From Alcaligenaceae bacterium CGII-47 (GTDB lineage Bacteria > Pseudomonadota > Gammaproteobacteria > Burkholderiales > Burkholderiaceae_B), in contig JAHTBO010000006.1 of assembly GCA_019166125.1 (NCBI GenBank), positions 124,001 to 188,000 on the forward strand: a stretch of 64,000 nt of DNA, given 5' to 3'. Position 1 is the stretch's first letter, and each line of letters starts with the position of its first letter. Of the stretch, positions 30,315-43,615 are shown piece by piece. The position numbers and the translations under genes are program-made. The notes beneath the pieces are model-generated. The model saw nothing but the letters and a program-made list of their open reading frames with translations, ran no database searches and was not told the DNA's origin.

Positions 30315-31523
30315 TCAAGTCGCGACTTCTACGCGATTGCGTCCATTGCTTTTGGCGCGATAGAGCGCCTCATCGGCGCGTGCATGCAATGCCTTGGCGG
30401 TGTCGCCGCTTTGCGTGGCCGCCGCGCCCAGGCTGACCGTCAAGCGTAAGCACTGCTTGTTATGTTTGACTTCTAGAAGGGCGATAGTTTGGCGAATTCT
30501 CTCGGCAACAATGGCCGCATCCTCTGCGTCGGCATCCTCGAGGACAATCAGAAACTCTTCTCCGCCGTATCGGCCAAGCTGGTCGTTGCCGCGTAAGATT
30601 TTCTGGATGGCCTGCGCTGCAGCATGTAGTACGGCGTCGCCAGCTTGGTGTCCATAGGTATCGTTGATCGCCTTGAAATGATCCAGGTCAGCCATGATGA
30701 TCGCCAGTGATCGGTGCTCTTGTCGTGCTCGATATAGGCTGGCCCCCATCCAGGTTGTGATCGCACCATGGTTCATCACCCCTGTGAGGCTGTCATGGTC
30801 GGATTTTTTCTGTAGCTTTTGATTGCTGTCCTGGAGCTTTTGATAGAGCAGACTTTTTTCTACAACCAGCGATACCAGACCTGCGGTCTGGATATATATA
30901 TTCTGATGCTGGTTGCTATAGGCATCCTTTTGGCAGCTGGAAAAGAATAGAAATCCAATCGCCTTACCATTTACGACCAGTGGGCAGGTGAGGCTAGAGC
31001 GAATCCCCTCGGCCACGATAAGCTGTGTCGCCACGGATCGAGGGTTTTCAAAAAGGTATTGTTCCAAGTCGTTAAGAATGCGTGGCTCGTTGGTCTCGAT
31101 GATCTGCACGAGACTGCTGTTGGCCATGGTTGCCGAGAACCCACTATGTATCTTGATGCCTGGGTAGTTGGCCCGCGCCCAGCATGAACGTAACATCAGG
31201 CCTGCATCGTCGAGCAGGGCACAGCCAATGCGATCATAGGGGATCAATCGGGTGTAGGACTCATAAATGGAATTCAGGACCTGCTCGACAGACAGGCCTT
31301 GGCCGATGCGGGCCATTACGGTTTGTAGCTTGTCCAGTTCAGCAAAGCGTGACGTTATCCACTTAGCCATGCGTGAGACTTCAATACCCAGCTCACGGGT
31401 TGCGGGCGGCATGTCGACAACAGCTATTGAAGGCCCAGCGTAATTTCCCGTACGAATTGCCTTTATTTCCTGCACGCAGGCATCCAGGCTGTCTTGCACC
31501 GCTTGCTTCATATCTAACCTCAA
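30315..31523 (-). CDS. GAF-GGDEF diguanylate cyclase
   Basis: A 402-residue soluble c-di-GMP synthase. Residues about 60-215 form a GAF-type sensor (LIPYDRIGCALLDDAG, SSLTCPLVVNGKAIGFLFFS), followed by a short coiled linker and a GGDEF domain with active site GGEEF and the inhibitory RxxD site (RGND) five residues before it. The catalytic output therefore looks active and product-inhibited. The sensed signal is unknown. Confidence 0.92.
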   Translation of the reverse strand: MRLDMKQAVQDSLDACVQEIKAIRTGNYAGPSIAVVDMPPATRELGIEVSRMAKWITSRFAELDKLQTVMARIGQGLSVEQVLNSIYESYTRLIPYDRIGCALLDDAGLMLRSCWARANYPGIKIHSGFSATMANSSLVQIIETNEPRILNDLEQYLFENPRSVATQLIVAEGIRSSLTCPLVVNGKAIGFLFFSSCQKDAYSNQHQNIYIQTAGLVSLVVEKSLLYQKLQDSNQKLQKKSDHDSLTGVMNHGAITTWMGASLYRARQEHRSLAIIMADLDHFKAINDTYGHQAGDAVLHAAAQAIQKILRGNDQLGRYGGEEFLIVLEDADAEDAAIVAERIRQTIALLEVKHNKQCLRLTVSLGAAATQSGDTAKALHARADEALYRAKSNGRNRVEVAT

Positions 31524-31758: not shown

Positions 31759-32106
31759 GTGAACAAGATCATGCCTATTCCATCCCCTGTGCCCTATGAG
31801 GTCAGCCGAGCCTTGCTTACGCTCGGCGAGCGGATTCAGGTCGCACGCCTGAGGCGAAACCTTACCCAGGCCGAGCTCGCCGCAGCTTGCGGTATCTCGC
31901 GTCGAACGCTGTACGGGATCGAGAACGGCCAGGCCGGTATTGCAGTGGGCCATGTTTATGCCGCGCTGTGGGCCCTTGGGCTGCTCGGCTCAGTTGCGGG
32001 CGTAGCCGATCCGGACGCCGATGGTCATGGCAAGATTCTGGAGGCAGGTCGGCGGGCCAAGCGTGCCCGCCGACCCAGGGTGCCCCTTGATAGCAATGAT
32101 TTTTAG
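31759..32106 (+). CDS. HipB-like XRE-family antitoxin (second copy)
   Basis: A 115-residue protein with a clear helix-turn-helix (LGERIQVARLRRNLTQAELA, then GISRRTLYGIENGQAGIAVG). The C-terminal tail is basic (RRAKRARRPRVP). The start is GTG 31759 or ATG 31771. It precedes hipA by 12 bp. It shares the fold but little sequence with the first hipB, so the two modules are not recent duplicates. Confidence 0.88.
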   Translation: MNKIMPIPSPVPYEVSRALLTLGERIQVARLRRNLTQAELAAACGISRRTLYGIENGQAGIAVGHVYAALWALGLLGSVAGVADPDADGHGKILEAGRRAKRARRPRVPLDSNDF

Positions 32107-32118
32107 GGGAAAACTGCT

Positions 32119-33393
32119 GTGAAGACCGCTGATCAGTTTTGCTATGTCTATATTCAGTTGCCGGGGACATCCGAGTGGGTGACCTGCGCATCCCTTCGGG
32201 TGCGTGAGCTGGCCTCAGGCATGTTTGAGGGGACATTTACCTATGGCAAGCGCTACCTCGCACGTCACAACGTCGTGGCCTTGGATCCCTTTCGCTTGCC
32301 CCTAAGCGAGCACCCACACAAAATCACCAAGCTCAAGGGCATCCCGGGCGCGGTGCGTGATGCCGGCCCCGATTACTGGGGACGACGCGTCATCCAGGCA
32401 AAGCTCGAGCGCCCGGAGGCTACACTACAGGAGGTGGATTACTTGCTGAATGGCCCGGATGATGGTGCTGGCAATCTGCGCTTTGGCCTGACGGTAGAGC
32501 CGCCAGGCCCACCTCGACCCTTTAACCGCACGTATCAGCTAGAAGCGCTTATCGAGGCGGCTCAGACGCTGGAGGCGGATGGTCGCCTGCCTCATGAGGT
32601 GTTGGAGGGGCTGGATCCGGGGACGAGCATGGGCGGGGCACGACCCAAGGTTGCGATTGAGGATGACAATAAAATCTGGTTGGCGAAGCTGCCCGAGCGG
32701 CAAGATCGCCACAATATGCAGCGCATTGAATATGCGACGCTGGAATTAGCCCGTGCGGCGGGTTTGCAGGTTTGTCATACACGCCTGGAAAAGGTCTCTG
32801 GGCGCGATGTCCTGATGCTACAGCGCTTTGATCGGGAATGGAATCCTGATACCCAGTCCTATGACCGCTACGGTATTGTTTCGGCGCTTACTGTGCTGGA
32901 TGCCGAGGATGGCCACTATGGACGTGATAAATGGTCGTATCTTCTGTTCGCTGATGAGCTCAGGCGTTGGTCGGTCAGGCCCAACGAGGACCGCCAGGAG
33001 TTGTTTCGCCGTATGGCCTTCAACGCGATGGTGACGAACAATGATGACCATCTGCGTAATCATGCCTTGCTGCGTACGTCGATGGGATGGCGGCTGTCGC
33101 CTGCCTACGATATTGTGCCCGTAGCGCTGGTGTCACAAGAGCGGCGTGACTTGTCGCTTGATGTGGGCCGTTACGGACGCACGGCGAGTATCTATAACTT
33201 ATTGTCCGCATGTGGCGTTTTTGGCTTGTCACGTGAACAAGCCAGGGCGCAGATCGACGCCATGCTGCAGGTGGTGCAGCATTGGCGGGCGCATTTTGCC
33301 ACGCTTGCACTCGAGCCGCGTAGCCTGGATATGCTCGAAGGGGCGATTCTTTCGCCAAGTTTTTTTCGCGAAGACCCGCCCGAACGGGTCTAG
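32119..33393 (+). CDS. HipA-family serine/threonine kinase toxin (second copy)
   Basis: A 424-residue HipA-type kinase. In order: N-terminal subdomain with GPDYWGRRVIQ, the loop DPGTSMGGARPKVAIED, IWLAKLPERQD with the ATP lysine, IEYATLELARAAGL, MLQRFDREW, the catalytic TNNDDHLRNHALL segment, and LSPAYDIVP with the metal Asp. All kinase elements are present. GTG start with AGGGGAAA upstream. It differs from the first HipA throughout, including the region that selects the tRNA synthetase target in known HipA proteins, so targets may differ. Confidence 0.9.
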   Translation: MKTADQFCYVYIQLPGTSEWVTCASLRVRELASGMFEGTFTYGKRYLARHNVVALDPFRLPLSEHPHKITKLKGIPGAVRDAGPDYWGRRVIQAKLERPEATLQEVDYLLNGPDDGAGNLRFGLTVEPPGPPRPFNRTYQLEALIEAAQTLEADGRLPHEVLEGLDPGTSMGGARPKVAIEDDNKIWLAKLPERQDRHNMQRIEYATLELARAAGLQVCHTRLEKVSGRDVLMLQRFDREWNPDTQSYDRYGIVSALTVLDAEDGHYGRDKWSYLLFADELRRWSVRPNEDRQELFRRMAFNAMVTNNDDHLRNHALLRTSMGWRLSPAYDIVPVALVSQERRDLSLDVGRYGRTASIYNLLSACGVFGLSREQARAQIDAMLQVVQHWRAHFATLALEPRSLDMLEGAILSPSFFREDPPERV

Positions 33394-33414: not shown

Positions 33415-34200
33415 TCAGACGTTGGGGATCAGGCCGCCGTCCACACGAATTACTGATCCGGTCAGGTAGGATGCCTGCTGACTGGCCAGGAACGTGGCGA
33501 CGGCACCGTATTCCTCGGGTTTCCCATAGCGCTTCAGAGGAATCGTTCCGACACTTTCCTGTACGACGCTCTCGTAGCTGCGGCTTTCGCGGCCGGCCTT
33601 GGCCTCATCCAGCGCGACAATGCGTTGTGTCGCAATACGACCGGGGATGATCACATTGCTGGTGACGCCGTGCTCTCCTACCTCGCGCGACAGGGTTTTG
33701 GACCACCCCACCAAGGTGCTACGCAGCGCATTGGACAGGCCCAGGTTGGGAATAGGGATCACGACACCGGATGAGGCACTGGTAATAATACGTCCCCAGC
33801 CCTGTGTCTTCATGTGGCCCAATACCAGATCGGTCATCGTGACTACCGATAGCACCATGGCGGAAAAGTGGTGCTCCCAGACACTTCGGTCAATGTTCTG
33901 TATGAGGCTAGGTGGTGGACCACCTGTGTTATTGAACAAGATATCAACTGGCCCAACCGTTGATACGAGTGCCTCGTGCCATTGGGTAAACGAATCGATA
34001 TCTGCCAGATCCCAAACCTGGGCGATGGCTTTTCCACCCGCCTGTTCAATGGCCTCACATGTCTGTTGTACCGAGTCCGGATTGACATCGCAGGCGATAA
34101 CCGTCGCGCCTTCGGCTGCCAGGGCACGGGCAACGGCACCGCCCAGCCCCCCGCCTGCACCATGCACCAGGGCAATGCGCTTCTTTAAACCTAAATCCAT
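33415..34200 (-). CDS. SDR-family oxidoreductase lacking the usual Tyr-Lys pair
   Basis: A 261-residue short-chain dehydrogenase with the Rossmann start VHGAGGGLGGAVA, NAD(P) acidic strand VIACDVN, and the unusual NNTGGPPPS in place of NNAG. The active-site serine region is SASSG, but where YxxxK is expected the sequence reads LSNALR. The same replacement is known in a whole SDR subgroup with the TGGPPP motif, so this is a subfamily feature and not damage; the catalytic mode is unclear. It sits 25 bp downstream of nadX and is probably co-transcribed from the LysR-controlled promoter. Confidence 0.88.
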   Translation of the reverse strand: MDLGLKKRIALVHGAGGGLGGAVARALAAEGATVIACDVNPDSVQQTCEAIEQAGGKAIAQVWDLADIDSFTQWHEALVSTVGPVDILFNNTGGPPPSLIQNIDRSVWEHHFSAMVLSVVTMTDLVLGHMKTQGWGRIITSASSGVVIPIPNLGLSNALRSTLVGWSKTLSREVGEHGVTSNVIIPGRIATQRIVALDEAKAGRESRSYESVVQESVGTIPLKRYGKPEEYGAVATFLASQQASYLTGSVIRVDGGLIPNV

Positions 34201-34225: not shown

Positions 34226-35032
34226 TTAAGTGCCCACGCACAAGGGCGCGCGTAGTTTACGCAATAATGCAATCACGCTTTGTGCCGTGATACGGCCGGT
34301 CTTTGGGTTTTCTGATGGAATATTCTGGATTTCCATCGACAGTAGCGCTGAGTCGGAAATGACCTCGATATGATGAGTATTGCGCACCAGCGTCGGGTCT
34401 GCCCATACTTCCAGTTGTGTGCGATCAGGTCCAATCCCAGCTAATGACACGCTGACTGCCACGTTCAGATTTGCGGGGAACCCAGCCGCCGCCTCACGTG
34501 CCGACCCTGAAAAAATCAGGGTGGGCTTAGTCAGACCCAGCACATCAATATTCTGCTGTTCAAGGAATGGTGCGCCGACAAATCCCTTGATAGGCTTGCG
34601 CGATGTCATCTTGACCGACTGGATTTCCCCCTCGGCCGCCCCGAGCAATGCATCCAGACCAAGGATCGCTCCCGATGGGACCAGGATCTGGCCGTGATGT
34701 TCGCGTGCGAGATCAATAAGCTCTGGGTGATCCAATAGCGCGCCGCTGCTGAGTACAACGGCTTTTTTACCCACGCGCAAAACGGGCGTGATGATCGAGC
34801 TGAGGTGCTGTGCTGGTGCGCACTCGATGACTACGTCACAGTGCGGCTCGAGATCCCCGAGGCGCGTGAACACCGGTGGGCCCTGATCGCCCCACTCAAA
34901 TGCTGGCGGTACTGCAGGTTCGCGCACCCCAACCGCCGTCAGTCGCAGGCCATCGACACCACGAATGATCTGGCGAGCGATCGCTCGACCAATTGAACCA
35001 AAGCCGGCTACTCCTACCCGTATCTCCTCCAT
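34226..35032 (-). CDS. nadX: aspartate dehydrogenase-like NAD(P)-dependent enzyme
   Basis: A 268-residue enzyme of the L-aspartate dehydrogenase family (COG1712). Rossmann start VGVAGFGSIGRAIARQI, then CDVVIECAPAQHL, SSGALLDHPELIDLARE, VPSGAILGLDALLGA, and the C-terminal PANLNVAVSVSLAGIGPDRT with the conserved Asn and Asp region. Known members convert aspartate and NAD to iminoaspartate or act on other amino/keto acids. ATG 35032 was chosen since the longer frame (35110) adds a non-conserved stretch and runs over the promoter boxes. First gene after the LysR operator. Confidence 0.85.
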   Translation of the reverse strand: MEEIRVGVAGFGSIGRAIARQIIRGVDGLRLTAVGVREPAVPPAFEWGDQGPPVFTRLGDLEPHCDVVIECAPAQHLSSIITPVLRVGKKAVVLSSGALLDHPELIDLAREHHGQILVPSGAILGLDALLGAAEGEIQSVKMTSRKPIKGFVGAPFLEQQNIDVLGLTKPTLIFSGSAREAAAGFPANLNVAVSVSLAGIGPDRTQLEVWADPTLVRNTHHIEVISDSALLSMEIQNIPSENPKTGRITAQSVIALLRKLRAPLCVGT

Positions 35033-35084
35033 CTCTACAATCCCCGAATACAAAGTTATGACGCCCGACAGGACGAAGAACTTC

Positions 35085-35114
35085 ATTCTAGGAGAGGCGG
35101 CAGGGCACAAACAA
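35085..35114 (-). promoter_or_regulatory. promoter of the nadX-SDR operon
   Basis: On the minus strand: -35 TTGTTT (35114-35109), 18-bp spacer, -10 TAGAAT (35090-35085). The -35 box overlaps the conserved half site of the LysR operator. Confidence 0.65.
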
Positions 35115-35151
35115 ACGATTTGTTATCGTGAGTCGGATTAGCACAGCTAAT
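35111..35151 (-). promoter_or_regulatory. LysR operator, nadX side
   Basis: On the minus strand: palindrome ATTAGC-N3-GCTAAT (35151-35137), 15 bp, then AAATCGTTTGT (35121-35111). The palindrome contains the T-N11-A core of LysR sites. The same elements with the same spacing occur at 36146-36186. It overlaps the last codon of the LysR gene. Confidence 0.8.
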
Positions 35152-36106
35152 GAGTTACTGTTTCTGCTGCTTCATTTAACACCCAGGCTCTGAACTTTTG
35201 GATGGCTGTTTGTTTGTGTGATATTGCCTGCGTGAGCAGATAGTAATCACCGGCGCTTCTGACACGTTGTAGATCCGGGAGAAGGATTTCGAGTTCATTA
35301 TTGCCGGGATAGCCCTGTAGTAAAACACTGGGGACAAGTGCAATACCCCGTTGATCTTGTGCCGCACGCAGCGAAATATAAAAGTGACCGTATTCGGGAT
35401 CCTCGTCCCTGCGTCGGTAATCCACGCCATGGGCCTTAAGCCATTCGGGCCAGGCATTGGGGCGGCTGGCGGTATGCACGAGCGGCGCAGTTTTAAGGTC
35501 TTCGACGCACCGGATAGGCGGCTGATTGGCATACCATTGTCGAGATGCAATGGGCACCATCGTATCGTGGAACAATAGGTCGGCCTCGATATTGGTCCAT
35601 TTCTCTAGCATGACGAGATTGACAGCGGGGAAATGAGCCGGGTAACGTTTCCCAGGGAGCTTCCCCACTCGTAAGGCGACATCAATATTGGCAGCCTGCA
35701 TGTCGACCGGCCTGATGTCAGACACCACGCGCACCTCAATGTCGGGATGTAGCGCGGCGAATGAGGCCAAACGGGGCATGAGCCATAGTGTTCCTATCGT
35801 GGGGATTGTGCTGACCGTTAGTATTTCATGTTGCTCGGGGGCCGCCAGGCTGCGGGTGACCTTCTCCAGGCCATCGAGTAGCGCTTGGCATGCCTCCTGG
35901 AATTGCAGCCCTTCACGGGTCAGCTCTACCTTGCGTGCATGCCGGATGAATAGCGGCATACCCAGAAATTCTTCGAGCTTGCGAATCTGCAAGCTGATGG
36001 CCCCCTGTGATACGTGCAGTTCTTGGGCAGCCAGGGTGAATGATAAATGGCGGGCTGCGGCTTCAAAATATCGGGTGGCCAGTAATGGTGGGAGGTATCT
36101 ACCCAT
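35147..36106 (-). CDS. LysR-family regulator of the flanking catabolic operons
   Basis: A 319-residue LysR protein of the GcvA type. Winged helix at residues 5-65 (FEAAARHLSFTLAAQELHVS, QGAISLQIRKLEEFLGMPLF), then an effector-binding domain from about residue 95 (LTVSTIPTIGTLWLMPRLAS). Matching operators lie on both sides of the gene: one before the rraA-TRAP operon (sharing the divergent promoter region with this gene) and one before nadX, just beyond its own stop. This indicates control of both operons and probably of itself. The effector is unknown, presumably the imported compound or an intermediate. Confidence 0.93.
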   Translation of the reverse strand: MGRYLPPLLATRYFEAAARHLSFTLAAQELHVSQGAISLQIRKLEEFLGMPLFIRHARKVELTREGLQFQEACQALLDGLEKVTRSLAAPEQHEILTVSTIPTIGTLWLMPRLASFAALHPDIEVRVVSDIRPVDMQAANIDVALRVGKLPGKRYPAHFPAVNLVMLEKWTNIEADLLFHDTMVPIASRQWYANQPPIRCVEDLKTAPLVHTASRPNAWPEWLKAHGVDYRRRDEDPEYGHFYISLRAAQDQRGIALVPSVLLQGYPGNNELEILLPDLQRVRSAGDYYLLTQAISHKQTAIQKFRAWVLNEAAETVTH

Positions 36107-36145
36107 AAGGCGGCTCGCAATCGTTATTCAAAGACTTTATTCGTC

Positions 36146-36186
36146 ATTAGCAAAGCTAATAGCATCACATACTTTAAATCGTTTGT
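36146..36186 (+). promoter_or_regulatory. LysR operator, rraA/TRAP side
   Basis: Palindrome ATTAGC-AAA-GCTAAT (36146-36160) with a T-N11-A core, 15 bp, then AAATCGTTTGT (36176-36186), which overlaps the -35 box. Arrangement is identical to the site in front of nadX. This is the expected layout of a LysR recognition site followed by an activation site at the RNA polymerase boundary. Confidence 0.82.
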
Positions 36187-36211
36187 CTGGTCTTTGACAC
36201 CCCACTAAGAT
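36183..36211 (+). promoter_or_regulatory. promoter of the rraA-TRAP-isochorismatase operon
   Basis: -35 TTGTCT (36183-36188), 17-bp spacer, -10 TAAGAT (36206-36211). The weak -35 is typical for an activator-dependent promoter. Confidence 0.65.
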
Positions 36212-36280
36212 AAAAACATGTTTAACCAGCGGCTGTCGGCGACTAACGCGGCGGCACACCTATCAGTGAGGGTCCGGATC

Positions 36281-36955
36281 ATGTCCGAACAGCAACACAA
36301 AAACGCTATCCGTGAACGCTATTTAAAGGTTGATACCTCAAACGTCGCGGATGTCCTGGACGAAATGGGGCTCCCGGATCAATGCCTTGCCGCCGGTTTC
36401 CAGCGACAAACAGGTCAAGAGCGGCTTGCGGGCTGGGCTTACACCATACGCGGCCAGATGACGCCGTACGAGCTTGGTGGCGACGCCGAAAAGATGAAAG
36501 CCTGCGCAGCGATATCAGAAGGTGATGTATCCGTATGGTCGGGTGATGGTGACGGCATTTGCTATTTCGGCGAGCTGATCTCTATCGGCATGAAGGAAAA
36601 GGGCTGTGTAGGCGCAATCGTCGATGGTGGTCTGCGCGATACGCGCTGGATCAATGCGCTGGGCTTTACGGTCTTTGGCCGTTTTCGTACGCCAGTGCAA
36701 TCCATTTCACGCTGGAAGGTCAACGCCTGGAATGTGCCCGTATTCATGGCGGGTGCCACCGGTCGGCGTGTGGCCGTCCATCCCGGTGACTTCATACTGG
36801 GCGACGATGATGGTGCGCTGGTTATTCCACAGGCGATCGTCGAAAAAGTCCTGGTCGAGTCCGAGCGTTTGACGCAACAGGAAATCAACATTCGCGAAAG
36901 CCTCAGCCAGGGGATGTCGCTGGCTGAGGCGCTCGAGAAATACGGTCACGTCTAG
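36281..36955 (+). CDS. RraA-like aldolase/decarboxylase family protein
   Basis: A 224-residue protein of the RraA/MenG-like fold shared by 4-hydroxy-4-methyl-2-oxoglutarate aldolases, oxaloacetate decarboxylases and the RNase E regulator RraA. The enzyme motif is present: GAIVDGGLRDT with the substrate Arg and metal Asp (about residues 115-125), and HPGDFILGDDDGALVIP later. These residues favour an aldolase or decarboxylase over RraA. ATG 36281 (GAGGG upstream) is preferred to ATG 36218, which lies at the predicted transcript start. First gene of the LysR-controlled plus-strand operon. Confidence 0.85.
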   Translation: MSEQQHKNAIRERYLKVDTSNVADVLDEMGLPDQCLAAGFQRQTGQERLAGWAYTIRGQMTPYELGGDAEKMKACAAISEGDVSVWSGDGDGICYFGELISIGMKEKGCVGAIVDGGLRDTRWINALGFTVFGRFRTPVQSISRWKVNAWNVPVFMAGATGRRVAVHPGDFILGDDDGALVIPQAIVEKVLVESERLTQQEINIRESLSQGMSLAEALEKYGHV

Positions 36956-36999: not shown

Positions 37000-37983
37000 A
37001 TGAAAACTATTCTTGGTGCGGCGATACTCGCCCTATCCTTCATCGGCGGTCATGCCGTCGCACAAAAGCCAGTCGTCGCAAACTTTGGACACGGCTTTCC
37101 GGCTGGGTCGATTCATCACCAGGCGGCCACAGAATTCCAACAGGAAATTGATAAGCTCAGCGATGGCGCGATCAAGGTCAATGTCTTTCACTCGGGTCAG
37201 CTAGGCAGCGCGCGTGAGATGTTTGAAGGCCTGCAATTGGGGACCTTGCAGATGACCTGGGTGCCCACAGCGCGCATCAGTGGCTTTGCACCGCAGTTGC
37301 AGTTGTTCGATCTGCCTTTCTTGTTCAAGAATATGGATTTCCTCGAGCAGGTGCTCGACGGCGACGTGGGTACGCAGTTGCTCGACTCCTTATCCTCGCA
37401 GCAGGTCACCGGGATCGGGTTCTATATCGATGGTTTCAAGGCGATGACAGCCAACAAGCCCTTGCGTACGCTCGATGACTTTAAAGGGGTGAAGTTCCGC
37501 ACGATGGAAAGCGAAATCGTGATGTCCTTCTATCGTTCGCTCGGTGCAGACCCGGTGCCGATGGATTATGCAGAGGTTTATAACGGCCTGCAGATGGGCG
37601 TGATCGACGGCCAGGAAAATCCAATCGTTCTGATCCACGATATGAAGTTCCACGAAGTCCAAAAGAACCTGATGATCTCCGAGCATGCGGTGCTGGCTGG
37701 TGTCTTGGTATATGGCACGCAGTGGTTCAACAGCCTGCCGGCCGAGCAGCAGAACATCCTGCGTGAGGCGGGCCAGAACTTGGTTAAGCGCCAGCGCGCA
37801 ATGGCCCGGGATATCGAGCAAAAGGATCTGGCGGCCATCGAGGCGTCAGGGACTGAAGTCATTCGCTTGACCAGCGAGGAAAAAATGCCTTTGCGAGAGG
37901 CGACACAAAATGTCCGTGCGCAATATGTGAAGCAATACGGCGATCAGCTCTTGACGGCGATCGATGCGGCGAGGGGTGAATGA
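37000..37983 (+). CDS. TRAP transporter substrate-binding protein (DctP family)
   Basis: A 327-residue periplasmic receptor with signal peptide (ILGAAILALSFIGGHAVAQ, cleavage near residue 22). Family marks: FHSGQLGSAREMFEGLQLGT, LPFLFKNMDFLEQVLDG, FKGVKFRTMESEIVMSFYRS with the conserved Arg, and VPMDYAEVYNGLQMGVIDGQENP, which also occurs in C4-dicarboxylate and sugar-acid binding DctP proteins. Strong AAAGGGGA ribosome site. Overlaps dctQ by 4 bp. Confidence 0.94.
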   Translation: MKTILGAAILALSFIGGHAVAQKPVVANFGHGFPAGSIHHQAATEFQQEIDKLSDGAIKVNVFHSGQLGSAREMFEGLQLGTLQMTWVPTARISGFAPQLQLFDLPFLFKNMDFLEQVLDGDVGTQLLDSLSSQQVTGIGFYIDGFKAMTANKPLRTLDDFKGVKFRTMESEIVMSFYRSLGADPVPMDYAEVYNGLQMGVIDGQENPIVLIHDMKFHEVQKNLMISEHAVLAGVLVYGTQWFNSLPAEQQNILREAGQNLVKRQRAMARDIEQKDLAAIEASGTEVIRLTSEEKMPLREATQNVRAQYVKQYGDQLLTAIDAARGE

Positions 37984-38512
37984 GTCGACGCAAACTGTGG
38001 GCATCCCGGCTGAAGTCCCTCGAAGAGGGCTTCATCGGGATCCTGCTGCTCGTGATCACCTTTGTCATTTTTGCCAATGTTGTGTTGCGATACGTGTTTC
38101 AGGCCAGCCTGAGTTGGGCAGAAGAGTTCGCACGCTACGGGGTGATTTGGGTGACCTTTATCGGCGGCAGCGTATGCGTCTATCGCGGCCTGCATATTAC
38201 TGTGGATATATGGGCACATAAGCTCTCACCGCGGATTGATCGGTGGTGGCTGATCTGTGCCAATACGGTCAGTGCATTATCGTGTGGTGCCTTTTTTTGG
38301 TATTCCTTATCGCTCGTTGAAAAATCGATTCATACCGGGCAAAAAACGGTTGCGCTGGGTTTGCCGATGTGGCTCGTATATGGCGCGCTCTCGGTAGGGG
38401 GGCCTTGATGAGTCTGCGCTTTCTTATGCTGGCCTGGAATGGGCTGATGCGCCACGGCCCTCCAGATGCCGTGGCTTCTGCGGTGACTGAGATAGATGGA
38501 GATAATCGGTAA
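37980..38512 (+). CDS. TRAP transporter small subunit (DctQ family), frame interrupted at a G run
   Basis: Reading from 37980 gives four-helix DctQ sequence (LLLVITFVIFANVVLRYVFQ, SWAEEFARYGVIWVTFIGG, GLPMWLVYGALSVGG) and then a stop at 38406-38408. The +1 frame carries on with ALMSLRFLMLAWNGL and a tail that ends with TAA overlapping the ATG of the permease by 1 base, exactly what an intact operon would show. The shift falls in a run of six G (38397-38402); seven would restore one protein of about 177 residues. Sequencing error, slippage-based variation or a real loss are all possible. The truncated form still contains four helices except the last turn. Confidence 0.85.
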
Positions 38513-39789
38513 TGCTGGTGCTCTGTGCGTCGATTGTCGGCTTGATGTTGCTGCGAATACCGCTATTCGTTGTCTTCTTGTTATCGGCCTTGGTGTATAT
38601 CGGGATGCTGACGTCTATTCCCGTCAATATCGTGATTCAAAGGACGTTTTCAGGGCTGGATAAGTTCCCCTTGATGGCCGTCCCAATGTTTATCCTGGCT
38701 GCCTACACCATGGCGCAAGGCGGGATGTCCTCTCGCATCATCGACTTTGCCAAATCTTTGGTCAGCCCACTGCCTGGTGGGCTCGCGCTGGCAACCGTCT
38801 TTGCCTGCATGCTCTTTGGGGCGGTCTCCGGCTCCAGCCCGGCGACCGTGATTGCCATTGGCAGCATCATGTACCCCGCACTGGTCAAAAGCGGCTATAA
38901 CTCGGGGTTTTCGGTAGGTTTGATTAGTTCGAGTGCATCGGTCTCGGCGATTATTCCGCCCAGCATCGGCATGATCGTCTATGGCACCGTGGCGAATGTT
39001 TCAATCGGGCAGCTGTTTATTGCGGGTGTGGTGCCCGGCATACTGTATGGGCTGATGTTTATGCTCTATTCGCTGGTGTACTGTCTGTGGTTTGATCATC
39101 GCAGCAATGACAGTTATCACTGGGACGAAATAAAGCGCACCTTTAAACAAGCCATCTGGGCGCTGGGTGTGCCGATTATTATCATCGGGGGCATTTACGG
39201 TGGCATCATGACGCCTACCGAGGCTGCTGCGGTGGCAGCAGTATATGCAATACTGGTCGCCTTGTTTGTCTACCGAGACATTGATTTAAAAAAACTGCTT
39301 TCCATTTCGGTCGATTCAGCGGCGATCACCGCACAAATCATGATTCTTATTGGTACCGCTTCCGCGTTGTCGTGGCTGCTGACAATCGAGCAGGTGCCAG
39401 GTGAGGTGACCCAGTGGCTGACGAACACCATCAGCTCTAAGATAGGCATGCTGCTGATGATTAACCTGATCCTGATTGTCGCAGGGATGTTCCTGGATCC
39501 GACTTCGGTGACAGTGATTTTTGCGCCACTCTTTTTGCCGATTGCTCAGACCATGGGCATCGACCCGATCCATCTGGGCATCATCATGCTGGTAAACGGT
39601 GCGTTGGGTATGTTTACGCCACCCTTCGGATTTAATCTGTTTGTGGCGTCGTCACTCTTTGGCGTCTCTATTGTCCGCCTGGCATCCGCAGTGGTCCCCT
39701 TCATGATCATGGCGCTAGTGGTTGTGTTGTTGGTGACGTTTATTCCCCCTGTGTCGCTGTGGTTGCCCGCAGCACTTAATATGAGATAG
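38512..39789 (+). CDS. TRAP transporter large permease (DctM family)
   Basis: A 425-residue permease with about 12 helices. Landmarks: FPLMAVPMFILAAYTMAQGG, ACMLFGAVSGSSPATVIAIG, SSASVSAIIPPSIGMIVYG and, in the second half, MLVNGALGMFTPPFGFNLFV. Starts on the stop of the repaired dctQ frame. Together with the receptor and small subunit it forms the importer of the LysR regulon. Confidence 0.94.
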   Translation: MLVLCASIVGLMLLRIPLFVVFLLSALVYIGMLTSIPVNIVIQRTFSGLDKFPLMAVPMFILAAYTMAQGGMSSRIIDFAKSLVSPLPGGLALATVFACMLFGAVSGSSPATVIAIGSIMYPALVKSGYNSGFSVGLISSSASVSAIIPPSIGMIVYGTVANVSIGQLFIAGVVPGILYGLMFMLYSLVYCLWFDHRSNDSYHWDEIKRTFKQAIWALGVPIIIIGGIYGGIMTPTEAAAVAAVYAILVALFVYRDIDLKKLLSISVDSAAITAQIMILIGTASALSWLLTIEQVPGEVTQWLTNTISSKIGMLLMINLILIVAGMFLDPTSVTVIFAPLFLPIAQTMGIDPIHLGIIMLVNGALGMFTPPFGFNLFVASSLFGVSIVRLASAVVPFMIMALVVVLLVTFIPPVSLWLPAALNMR

Positions 39790-39792
39790 GTC

Positions 39793-40497
39793 ATGTCAAA
39801 TTTGTTATCCGACACGGTTCGCCCGTCGGACATGCCCCAGAGCCCAAAAAGCAAGCAAGGGCCGGCGCTCACGTTGCAGCAACAGTTGACACAGCAGCGC
39901 TGCGCGCTATTGGTCATCGATATGCAAAATGACTTTGTGGCCGATGATGGACGACTGGCCAAGTGGGGGCGTGATCCCGTTCTGGTGCGCGGCATCATCG
40001 ATCAGGTCAATCAGTTGGTCGAGCAGGCCAGGGCCGCCGGCCAACTGATTATCTGGGTGGCAACCAGCCACAGTTTTGAGGAAGCCTTGCCCAATTACCT
40101 GTCTGTGTATCTGCGCGATGTGCTCGAGGACCAGTGGACCGAAGACCAGTTGCTTGTGCGCACGGGAAGCGCAGGGGCTCAGTGGCATAAGGACATGACC
40201 CACCCGCTGCCTGATGAGGTGCAGATTACCAAAAATATGTACTCGGCCTTCAGAGGGACGCGCCTGAAGCAAATTCTGGACGCGCACGGCGTGCGCACCC
40301 TGGTATTGGCGGGGTGCAATACGAATGTTTGTCTACATAGTACCGCCACAGATGCCTTTTTTGATGGCTACTATCCGATTCTGTGCGAAGATGCGTGTGC
40401 CACCTCGAGCGCAGAGATCCACGAAGCCATCATCGCTACGCATCGGAATTTCTACGGCCTGACCGCCACGCTTGGGCAGATTAAAGCGCTCTGGTGA
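39793..40497 (+). CDS. isochorismatase-like cysteine hydrolase
   Basis: A 234-residue hydrolase with the family triad: Asp in VIDMQNDF (about residue 38), Lys in QITKNMYSAFRGT (about 146), and Cys in NTNVCLHSTATDAF (about 179), with the preceding cis-peptide GCNTN turn. Such enzymes include N-carbamoylsarcosine amidase, maleamate amidase, ureidoacrylate amidase and nicotinamidase, so an amide or carbamoyl bond is the likely target. It follows the permease by 3 bp and ends the operon. Combined with an aspartate dehydrogenase-like gene in the same regulon, a nitrogen-containing substrate is plausible but unproven. Confidence 0.9.
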   Translation: MSNLLSDTVRPSDMPQSPKSKQGPALTLQQQLTQQRCALLVIDMQNDFVADDGRLAKWGRDPVLVRGIIDQVNQLVEQARAAGQLIIWVATSHSFEEALPNYLSVYLRDVLEDQWTEDQLLVRTGSAGAQWHKDMTHPLPDEVQITKNMYSAFRGTRLKQILDAHGVRTLVLAGCNTNVCLHSTATDAFFDGYYPILCEDACATSSAEIHEAIIATHRNFYGLTATLGQIKALW

Positions 40498-40557: not shown

Positions 40558-42291
40558 TTGGTCAACAATATTCTTAAGCAATGGGTGATCAGCATCCTTG
40601 CGCTTATCATTGCGTGCCTCACGGTGCCCGCAATGGCCCAAGACCTCATTGTTTCGCGTGCCATGCTAGAGGATGCGTCGGGCAGCCTGACGATTGCGGA
40701 TGTTGCCGATAGTAAATTCGCGCCGATAGGTTCTACCCTCTACGAGGGCTACTCCGATTCTGCATACTGGCTGCGCCTGCGGGTTCAAGCGCCTGCCCAA
40801 GGCAGCGAGGTGGTTCTGCGTATTGGCCCGACCCTGCTCGATGATGTTCGGCTCTACGAGGCCGGTCAGGGCGATCCAAAAGAATGGATTACGCGTGTGA
40901 CAGGCGATCGCCATGCCTACCAGGATCGCGACCGTGCCGATATCGCTTTGGGTTTTGTGGTCAATATCACCGCGCCCGAGCAGACCTTTTATCTGCGCAT
41001 TCAGACGACAAGCGCATCGGTGCTGACCGTAGAGGGCATAGAGCCGCAGCATGCGCAACGTCATGCCGCACAGAAAAGTCTGCTGCATTATGTCTTTATC
41101 GGTCTGATGCTGTGGGCACTGATTTGGGCGATTGACCATTATATTGTCGGGCGCCAGTTGGCTATTGGGCTCTTTGCCCTGTACCAAGGGGTTTATATCC
41201 TCTATGGCCTGAGTGCAACGGGCAATCTTGCACCGTATGTCCCCTCTGCTATTCCCCAGTTGGCTGACTGGCTGACCAATGTATTGACTTGCGCTGCGCC
41301 TTTTTTCTTTGTGCTATTTAGCAAAGAGTTATTCAAGCGCTATTCGCCCCCGTGGATGCGAGGGTTTACTGCATTACTTTTGATCTTTCCCATTCAACTC
41401 GCACTGATGGCGTTTGATTACACGCGTCTGGCCTTGAATATCGGTGCCGTCATATACCTTGTTGCCGCCTGGTACTACGTGGCATTGGCGCTGGCAGCCA
41501 CGCAGGAACACGTGCCTAGCCGCCGGGTTTTGTTAACGACCTATATTGTGCTGGCGCTTTCTGTGACATTCACTAGTTTGACCGATCTGGGCTGGTCAAC
41601 GCTTATCGGCACGAGCTCAAAAAGTGCATGGATCATCCTTACCGATGGGATCGTGACCAGCGGCCTGCTTTGCTCGATGATGTATAGGTATCTACGTTGG
41701 TCACGTTTGGACGCTCAACGTGTCAATGTGCGCCTGGCACGCTCACAAAACGCGCTGGCCCGAGAGCGCGCACACAAAGAGTTGGCACAAACCCACGCCC
41801 GAACCGATTATCTGACCGGCCTGTTCAATCGACGTTATTTTGTCGAGCTGGTGAAGCACGAAATCGCGCGTGCGCTGGACACCCAAGCGCCCCTATCGCT
41901 GCTCATGATAGATATCGATTATTTTAAGCAGGTCAACGACACCTGGGGTCATGGTGCCGGAGACGTGGTGCTGCAACAAGTCTCTGGTCTGATCCGTGAC
42001 GCATTACGTGAGGATGATATTCTCGGTAGGATCGGTGGCGAGGAGTTCGCGGTGGCCCTGATCGGCACTGATCACGAACAGGCTCTAGAGGTTGCGCAAC
42101 GAATCCGAATGACGGTTGCCGATGCGGTGGTGCTGCTCTCAGATGGCCAGCAAGTGCAGGTCACCTTATCATTAGGGCTTACTCGGGTGCAGGGCCAGGA
42201 TATTGGTTTTGAAGAATTGCTGGATAAGGCCGATAAGGCGCTGTATCGCGCCAAGGGGGCGGGGCGCAATATCGTTATAGCGATGGATTGA
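40558..42291 (+). CDS. 7TMR-DISM sensor diguanylate cyclase
   Basis: A 577-residue membrane sensor: signal peptide (ISILALIIACLTVPAMAQ), a periplasmic jelly-roll DISM-ED2 domain (about 30-165, including AYWLRLRVQAP), seven membrane helices (about 180-375) and a C-terminal GGDEF domain with GGEEF and an RxxD inhibitory site (REDD) five residues before it. The architecture is that of carbohydrate- or ligand-sensing c-di-GMP synthases. Start TTG 40558 after AGGATAAG. The 60-bp gap after the isochorismatase gene makes operon membership doubtful. Confidence 0.92.
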   Translation: MVNNILKQWVISILALIIACLTVPAMAQDLIVSRAMLEDASGSLTIADVADSKFAPIGSTLYEGYSDSAYWLRLRVQAPAQGSEVVLRIGPTLLDDVRLYEAGQGDPKEWITRVTGDRHAYQDRDRADIALGFVVNITAPEQTFYLRIQTTSASVLTVEGIEPQHAQRHAAQKSLLHYVFIGLMLWALIWAIDHYIVGRQLAIGLFALYQGVYILYGLSATGNLAPYVPSAIPQLADWLTNVLTCAAPFFFVLFSKELFKRYSPPWMRGFTALLLIFPIQLALMAFDYTRLALNIGAVIYLVAAWYYVALALAATQEHVPSRRVLLTTYIVLALSVTFTSLTDLGWSTLIGTSSKSAWIILTDGIVTSGLLCSMMYRYLRWSRLDAQRVNVRLARSQNALARERAHKELAQTHARTDYLTGLFNRRYFVELVKHEIARALDTQAPLSLLMIDIDYFKQVNDTWGHGAGDVVLQQVSGLIRDALREDDILGRIGGEEFAVALIGTDHEQALEVAQRIRMTVADAVVLLSDGQQVQVTLSLGLTRVQGQDIGFEELLDKADKALYRAKGAGRNIVIAMD

Positions 42292-42373: not shown

Positions 42374-43615
42374 ATGACAATACAGGATTTTAAGGACGCA
42401 GCATGCTCGACGATTCATGAGCGCTTCGATGAGCAGGTGAGGATGCTCGCGCAGCTTGTGCAATGTCCGTCAGATAATCCTCCCGGGGATTGTGCGGCCC
42501 ATGCCGAACTTGCTGCTGGGCTGCTCGAGGCACTGGGGTTTGTGGTCGAGCGCCATACAGTCGATCAGGAATTGGTTCGTGCCGCGGGGATGCGCAGCGT
42601 GACCAATTTGATTATTCGCGAGACATTTGGGCCAGGTCCCACGATTGCCATGAATGCGCATGGCGATGTGGTGCCGCCAGGCGAGGGCTGGACAACGGAT
42701 CCGTATGGGGCAGAAATTCGGGATGGTTGGCTCTACGGGCGTGGTGCAGCGGTTTCAAAATCAGACTTCACGACTTATGCCTACGCATTGCTGGCACTAA
42801 AGGAATTACGGGATCGTGGCGCAACGTTGCGCGGTTCGGTTGAACTCCATTTCACGTACGATGAGGAAACGGGCGGGGTGCTTGGCCCAGGTTGGATTCT
42901 TGAACAAAAGCTAAGTGCGCCGGACTATGTGATTTCTGCCGCGTTTACCCATCATGTCGTCGTCGCCCATAATGGTTGCCTGCACCTGGAGATCATTGTC
43001 AAGGGGCGTTCAGCCCATGCCGCGCGACCCGATACGGGCGTTGATGCGATCGAAGCGACGTCGACTTTGCTGACCGCACTTTACGCCTATCGGGATCGTC
43101 TGGCCGAGCGCGTGTCGGATACAGTCGGGATTGAGTCGCCAACAATGGTGGTGGGCCTCATCGAAGGAGGAATCAATACCAATGTGGTCGCTGACACGGT
43201 GTCGCTGCGCATTGACCGTCGTATCATCCCCGAAGAGGTGGCCGAGCAGGTCGAGGACGAGCTGCGCGCCGTGGTGAATGACACCATCAGTCGTTTGCCT
43301 GGTGTGACCGCAGACATCCATCGTCTGCTGTTGGCGCTTCCCTTCAAACCCTCTGCCGCGTCAACCGAATTTGCACAACTGATGTGCAAAGAGGCCAGTG
43401 CCGTCATGGGCAAACCCGTAACCCCTATCGGGGTGCCGCTGTACACGGATGCACGCTTGTATAGTGAGGCGGGCATTCCCACTGTGATGTTTGGTGCCGG
43501 ACCGGTTGATCTGCTGGCTGCCAATGGCCATCGTGCAGACGAGCGTGTGCCGCTGGACGAGTTGCGTCGGGCGACCTGCGCGGTCGCCAATACATTGCTT
43601 GAACTGATGCACTGA
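42374..43615 (+). CDS. M20-family metallohydrolase (ArgE/DapE-like)
   Basis: A 413-residue dizinc amidohydrolase/peptidase. The first zinc His is in MNAHGDVVPPG, and the general base pair in TYDEETGGVLG (about residue 162). The stretch normally reading GRGxxDMKGG is GRGAAVSKSDF, so the bridging Asp is not at its usual place; this variant occurs in a branch of M20 enzymes. The dimerisation lid domain (SAHAARPDTGVDAIE) and the final His region GHRADERVPLDEL are present. Substrate unknown. Downstream of the cyclase gene and possibly independent. Confidence 0.87.
   Translation: MTIQDFKDAACSTIHERFDEQVRMLAQLVQCPSDNPPGDCAAHAELAAGLLEALGFVVERHTVDQELVRAAGMRSVTNLIIRETFGPGPTIAMNAHGDVVPPGEGWTTDPYGAEIRDGWLYGRGAAVSKSDFTTYAYALLALKELRDRGATLRGSVELHFTYDEETGGVLGPGWILEQKLSAPDYVISAAFTHHVVVAHNGCLHLEIIVKGRSAHAARPDTGVDAIEATSTLLTALYAYRDRLAERVSDTVGIESPTMVVGLIEGGINTNVVADTVSLRIDRRIIPEEVAEQVEDELRAVVNDTISRLPGVTADIHRLLLALPFKPSAASTEFAQLMCKEASAVMGKPVTPIGVPLYTDARLYSEAGIPTVMFGAGPVDLLAANGHRADERVPLDELRRATCAVANTLLELMH

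Follow-up and report, generated by a model that had tools for sequence, protein, structure and literature searches.

We asked whether a single LysR-type regulator controls both of the operons that flank its gene, nadX-SDR and rraA-TRAP-isochorismatase, in a 64,000-nucleotide stretch of DNA from Alcaligenaceae bacterium CGII-47 (hereafter, the window). A sequence-only reading of this locus had proposed that two identical composite LysR operators lie before the two operons, and had taken them as direct evidence that one regulator switches both. Our analysis points to a GcvA-type LysR protein (35147-36106) that would bind a composite operator on either side of its own gene and control nadX-SDR and rraA-TRAP-isochorismatase together, a reading to which we assign a probability of about 0.87. 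Judged from sequence comparison, this interpretation, in which a GcvA-type regulator has a conserved regulon of two operons, far outranks the others, and systems of this kind are already known. The features on which the argument draws are as follows.

33415..34200, minus strand: SDR family oxidoreductase, likely the second gene of the nadX operon
34226..35032, minus strand: nadX, aspartate dehydrogenase family (PF01958; NF009825 at 415 bits, cut-off 253)
35085..35090, minus strand: predicted -10 of nadX-SDR, TAGAAT (TAGAAT or TAGTAT in close relatives)
35151-35111, minus strand: site 1, exact 41-bp composite before nadX-SDR
35137..35151, minus strand: palindrome of site 1, ATTAGC-TGT-GCTAAT, probable recognition site (RBS)
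35111..35121, minus strand: second block of site 1, AAATCGTTTGT, taken as an activation site merging into the -35
35147..36106, minus strand: LysR-type regulator, GcvA-like, 319 aa, between the two sites
36146-36186, plus strand: site 2, exact 41-bp composite before rraA-TRAP-isochorismatase
36146..36160, plus strand: palindrome of site 2, ATTAGC-AAA-GCTAAT
36176..36186, plus strand: second block of site 2, AAATCGTTTGT
36206..36211, plus strand: predicted -10 of the rraA operon, TAAGAT (TAAGAT or TAACAT in close relatives)
36281..36955, plus strand: RraA-like aldolase/decarboxylase family protein (PF03737)
37000..39789, plus strand: TRAP transporter dctP, dctQ and dctM
39793..40497, plus strand: isochorismatase-fold hydrolase, likely the last gene of the rraA operon (PF00857; RutB-like)

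Two composite sites around a GcvA-like regulator gene

Both composites, ATTAGC-N3-GCTAAT followed after 15 bp by AAATCGTTTGT, were present exactly as proposed, and each palindrome carries the claimed T-N11-A core (T at palindrome position 2, A at position 14). Their description as identical holds for the two blocks, which agree at 23/23 positions, but not for the bases between them, as the N3 differs at all three positions (0/3 identical) and the 15-bp spacer at 13/15 (2/15 identical). Since identical blocks are joined to spacers that are so little alike, a recent duplication is unlikely. Site 1 overlaps the stop codon of the LysR gene (TAG, 35147-35149), which lies inside ATTAGC. The same arrangement is seen in G027, G254 and G261, and in G145 the stop codon lies within the right arm. 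Site 2 is located between the divergent lysR and rraA genes, its palindrome 40-54 bp away from the LysR start codon on the upstream side.

Over 100 shuffles the composite was expected 0.00 times at up to three mismatches. A scan of the whole genome (3,447,753 bases), which the sequence-only reading had called for, returned at the same tolerance only the two places flanking the LysR gene, with 0 for the reversed control. The palindrome alone occurred at two exact and two one-mismatch places in the genome versus 12 for its reversed control, and at four places in the window at up to two mismatches versus 1.9 expected; AATCGTTTG alone was found twice in the window versus 0.48 expected. Only the composite with its fixed spacing is significant, and the palindrome alone is not enriched.

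With the -35 boxes read as TTGTTT (nadX) and TTGTCT (rraA), the predicted -10 hexamers follow at 18 and 17 bp, respectively, in agreement with the 17-18 bp claimed; these spacings and positions are a reading of the sequence. The positions of the -10 hexamers place the predicted start sites near 35078 (nadX) and 36218 (rraA), relative to which the palindrome centres fall at about -66 (nadX) and -65 (rraA), with the second block at about -43 to -33. For rraA, a gene start at 36281 agrees better with the predicted transcript start than does one at 36218. Neither promoter was listed by a promoter scan, and both are weak by consensus; poor -35 boxes are common at activator-dependent promoters. By eye, a hexamer resembling a -10 box also lies downstream of most sites in the loci of LysR orthologs, about as far away as in the window.

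The regulator carries HTH_1 (PF00126, 75.4 bits) and LysR_substrate (PF03466, 89.5 bits) domains, both above cut-off. Its best NCBIfam match is GcvA (PRK11139 / NF008352) at 249.9 bits, under the curated cut-off of 288, and we therefore call it GcvA-like rather than GcvA; among solved structures it is closest to 8y6u_H, a glycine cleavage system transcriptional activator. One other protein of the same genome matches it at E ≤ 1e-15, with 33% identity. In a plasmid search with the LysR, limited to 5000 records, the ten matches listed reached at most 46% identity and were not used, and a tree of 36 LysR rows, with several long branches, served as a side check and not for dating.

According to PMC5002191, E. 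coli GcvA recognizes a 15-bp repeat, ATTAG-n5-CTAAT, with IR1 at -65 and the less conserved second repeat, IR2, at -43 of gcvB. Both window palindromes correspond exactly to this published repeat and lie, relative to the predicted starts, near -65 of their targets. The window system resembles the E. coli one (gcvA-gcvB, gcvTHP) in the 15-bp inverted repeat itself, in its place at -65, accompanied by a further site around -35, in the proposed control of more than one unit, and in a regulator gene divergent from one target. It differs in its predicted targets (nadX-SDR and rraA-TRAP-isochorismatase), and in that the second E. coli repeat follows 22 bp on, whereas the second window element, AATCGTTTG, is centred about 27 bp on. 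Sites near -65 and -35 are also frequent at LysR-type promoters in general, where PMC11602165 describes an RBS near -65 and an ABS near -35 (e.g., AccR-accS); unlike these, the window has two separate operators flanking the regulator gene, one of them over its stop codon.

Occurrence of the sites with the LysR ortholog

We searched 268 genomes of the family for LysR orthologs (E ≤ 1e-70) and scored the eight best candidates per genome. An ortholog was found in 28 genomes. Among their loci, 17 reached at least 17/21 conserved positions and 22 at least 16, compared with 0 and 2, respectively, of 84 shuffled loci. At a lenient level (at least 15/21, with at least 7/9 in the second block), 26 of the 28 loci had at least one site before nadX, rraA or tctC, though 5/84 shuffles also reach at least 15/21; two loci (L164 and L165) had no recognisable site at this level. 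Several loci keep half of the palindrome (6-8/12), and weak sites mean little one by one. Lenient matches were also seen inside nadX of L158 and as a shifted overlap in L146. Weak second composites (15/21) in LysR orientation stand at an unidentified gene in L166 (3579) and L167 (3632), possibly another member of the regulon.

Sites at two such promoters were present in 14 of the 28 loci, or 15 counting the rraA site of G019. All six loci with rraA in the stretch (the window, G037, G027, G145, G254 and G261) have both sites; with G019, where rraA lies beyond nadX-SDR and apart from the LysR gene and its site is kept with two mismatches, this becomes 7/7 of the examined genomes that carry a LysR ortholog and rraA. 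Pairwise identity over these seven genomes was 0.97 in the second block and 0.86-1.0 in the palindrome arms, compared with 0.58-0.68 in the spacer and 0.31-0.38 in the flanks.

In loci that showed no rraA, tctC is preceded by a second site (e.g., L147, L149, L151, L153 and L157). G169 has LysR, nadX, tctC and a TRAP set; its second site, again before tctC, scores 17/21 and is one base shorter. The tctC-lysR-nadX loci of Bordetella, Achromobacter and Pigmentiphaga relatives share with the window a LysR of 48-57% identity, nadX and the composite sites; they differ in having a TctC receptor in place of rraA-TRAP, and in that their LysR gene lies on the same strand just after tctC, whereas that of the window is divergent. 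Bordetella-type loci have the order site-tctC-lysR-site-nadX. The retention of a site before the relocated rraA of G019, together with the tctC sites elsewhere, indicates that the operators are tied to the regulon and not to one piece of DNA.

We also fetched 43 nadX loci by protein alone, without use of the motif. A LysR of 48-74% identity was encoded in ten of them (L037, L038, L039, L046, L064, L065, L066, L069, L070 and L073), and all ten contained the composite at 15/21 conserved positions or better, nine within 400 bp before nadX and the tenth (L073, 20/21) before its tctC. Of the 33 loci without the LysR gene, only L067 reached 15/21 before nadX, the others scoring at most 13; elsewhere in these 33 loci, scores of at least 15 were seen in three (L049, 15; L057, 15; L079, 17). 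No composite was found in L074 (Bradyrhizobium mercantei), which has nadX, SDR, rraA and a LysR of 37% identity. The joint presence of LysR and composite in nadX loci argues for one regulator of both operons. This assignment is well supported by comparison (10/10 versus one remnant in 33), but the evidence is comparative, not direct as had been claimed.

The exception, L067, is one of a pair of Bordetella ansorpii loci: in L070 LysR is present and nadX is preceded by the full composite, while L067 (9670-10003) is without LysR, retains AATCGTTTG at 9/9 before nadX and has lost the palindrome. It amounts to a natural loss, which, to judge from the closeness of the sister locus L070, may be recent.

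The second block and the identity of the binding protein

Over 22 sites, 7/9 positions of the second block are invariant and the remaining two almost invariant, and the block is more conserved than the palindrome arms, although picking sites with at least 7/9 in this block somewhat favours its conservation. The block does not repeat the palindrome. It is only weakly symmetric, at 0.59 about its own centre and 0.40 at the 22-bp offset of GcvA. A GcvA-style second repeat at that offset, seen as ACGAT-N5-ATCGT at the nadX site of the window, was rejected, as it fails over the 22 sites (0.40).

Two accounts of this block were weighed. The GcvA-type regulators of the family may use a mixed operator, in which a palindromic recognition half is combined with an unrelated, strictly spaced and more conserved activation half, AATCGTTTG, common to regulators that are about 29% identical. 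We offer this tentatively, at rather less than even odds; if true, the activation site would be read by its specific sequence, fused with the -35, and would not be a degenerate copy of the recognition site. It is also possible, with roughly one chance in three, that the palindrome alone is the LysR site and that AATCGTTTG is either a -35 region that is extended and activator-dependent or the target of a second factor, its spacing fixed by RNA polymerase. This would fit the overlap of TTTGT with the -35, the weak symmetry of the block, and its persistence at 9/9 next to a decayed palindrome (e.g., L150, L155 and L156, at 6/12) or, as in L067, after the loss of both palindrome and LysR, with the reservation that the latter loss may be recent. 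However, a -35 needs TTG and not nine near-invariant bases, and the nadX, rraA and tctC promoters share the nine (in sites whose selection favoured the block). The absence of a comparable score before nadX in 32 of the 33 loci without LysR also argues against it, as does the place of the block, which is that of the usual LTTR activation site (PMC11602165). L067 led us to raise slightly the likelihood of the block belonging to the -35 region and to lower slightly that of the mixed operator, as it favours a palindrome that belongs to LysR and a second block that may serve the promoter itself.

The spread of the composite bears on which protein binds it. When the gap was left free from 4 to 32 bases, the 268 family genomes yielded 23 sites in 18 genomes, with 0 for the reversed control. 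The spacing was that of the window in 19, one base shorter in two (G248 and G249), and 9 and 32 in one each. Fifteen of the 21 well-spaced sites belong to ten genomes, all with the LysR ortholog, and the other six to genomes without one at E ≤ 1e-70 (G107, G114, G125, G127, G129 and G024). A looser family search (up to three mismatches of 21) gave matches in 32/268 genomes, of which several three-mismatch places look like chance, and in the genome of the window its reversed control also gave one match. An order-wide search covered 399 genomes, 13 of them of the family; the 386 outside the family gave one match (G574) versus four for the reversed control over the list, hence nothing beyond chance.

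In the four genomes examined among those without the ortholog (G107, G114, G125 and G024), the composite, in its AAGTCGTTTG form, stands beside a GcvA-type LysR of 29-30% identity; its neighbours in G107 encode a CN-hydrolase, a D-serine-dehydratase-like protein and a family-5 solute-binding protein. The tie of the composite to one regulator is thus exclusive within the genome of the window, but family-wide it extends to this paralog, and the sequence alone does not name the binding protein. It is nevertheless improbable that such sites are common to GcvA-type regulators as a whole and that another GcvA-type paralog binds them in the window. The recognition helices of the window LysR and those paralogs do look alike by eye, but the single other LysR match in the own genome has in its locus, as the best composite-like stretch, only a 16/21 match with arms of 8/12, downstream of the paralog gene, and the two strong sites flank the window LysR and track its orthologs. 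As a side observation, L114 (8560-8920) and L115-L117 show the AAGTCGTTTG-form composite next to a different GcvA-type LysR. In L114 it precedes a CN-hydrolase gene, and a further ATCGTTTGT is found close to the start of that LysR. That the sites reflect chance, or a recent local duplication without function, is barely credible: the palindrome alone is indeed not over-represented, but the shuffles (composite expectation 0.00), the uniqueness in the genome and the divergence of the spacers (2/15 versus 23/23 in the blocks) led us to reject it, and footprinting by comparison contradicts it, the composite being conserved in related genera.

Proposed regulation and the controlled module

Under the regulon model, LysR would, most likely, hold the palindrome as its recognition site and touch the downstream block; inducer binding would shift this contact and so bring RNA polymerase to the weak -35. 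Site 2 is common to the divergent lysR promoter, and LysR bound there would also hold lysR down (autorepression). We infer binding, inducer-switched activation and autorepression by analogy with GcvA and general LTTR models (PMC5002191, PMC11602165).

Together, the controlled genes could serve to take up and degrade a small carboxylate or amino-acid-like compound, an assignment in which our confidence is low. Their solved relatives are generic (5ir2 and 3noj for the RraA-like protein, 2dc1 for nadX, many DctP proteins, and a RutB-like hydrolase). The set contains nine further genomes from the genus of the window, some of them incomplete, and all nine lack the nadX homolog, the LysR ortholog and the composite, which indicates that the module is accessory in that genus. 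In the open-access literature, we found nothing that combines at least three of aspartate dehydrogenase, RraA, a TRAP transporter and LysR, nothing on an aspartate dehydrogenase/nadX-LysR catabolism gene cluster (Bordetella included), and no mention of AATCGTTTG with LysR; from 2022 onwards, a cryo-EM report of GcvA with RNA polymerase was not found, though structure 8y6u exists.

Several further features of the locus were recorded. A gap of 103 bp separates dctM from the end of dctQ, which follows a run of G (37980-38511). The relative in L113 is 175 aa long and abuts dctM, and the C-terminal part of that relative matches another window frame weakly (35%, E 0.002); the gap may reflect a frameshift, a homopolymer sequencing error or divergence. 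Next to the end of the SDR gene, HTH_3 and HipA_C proteins in tandem form a HipBA-like toxin-antitoxin pair (31759-33393). Two GGDEF diguanylate cyclases bracket the module (30315-31523 and 40558-42291, the latter just after the isochorismatase gene), and an M20/ArgE-DapE type deacylase is encoded downstream (42374-43615).

The proposed regulon gives a testable unit for an uncharacterised nadX-SDR-rraA-transporter module, with transporter and enzymes assigned to one regulator, in Alcaligenaceae-type genera. The transporter differs among them, TRAP here and TctC elsewhere, while the two operators have stayed. The second block, with its unusually strong conservation, can serve as a marker of GcvA-type promoters in the family, and it bears on how LysR-type regulators recognize their activation sites.
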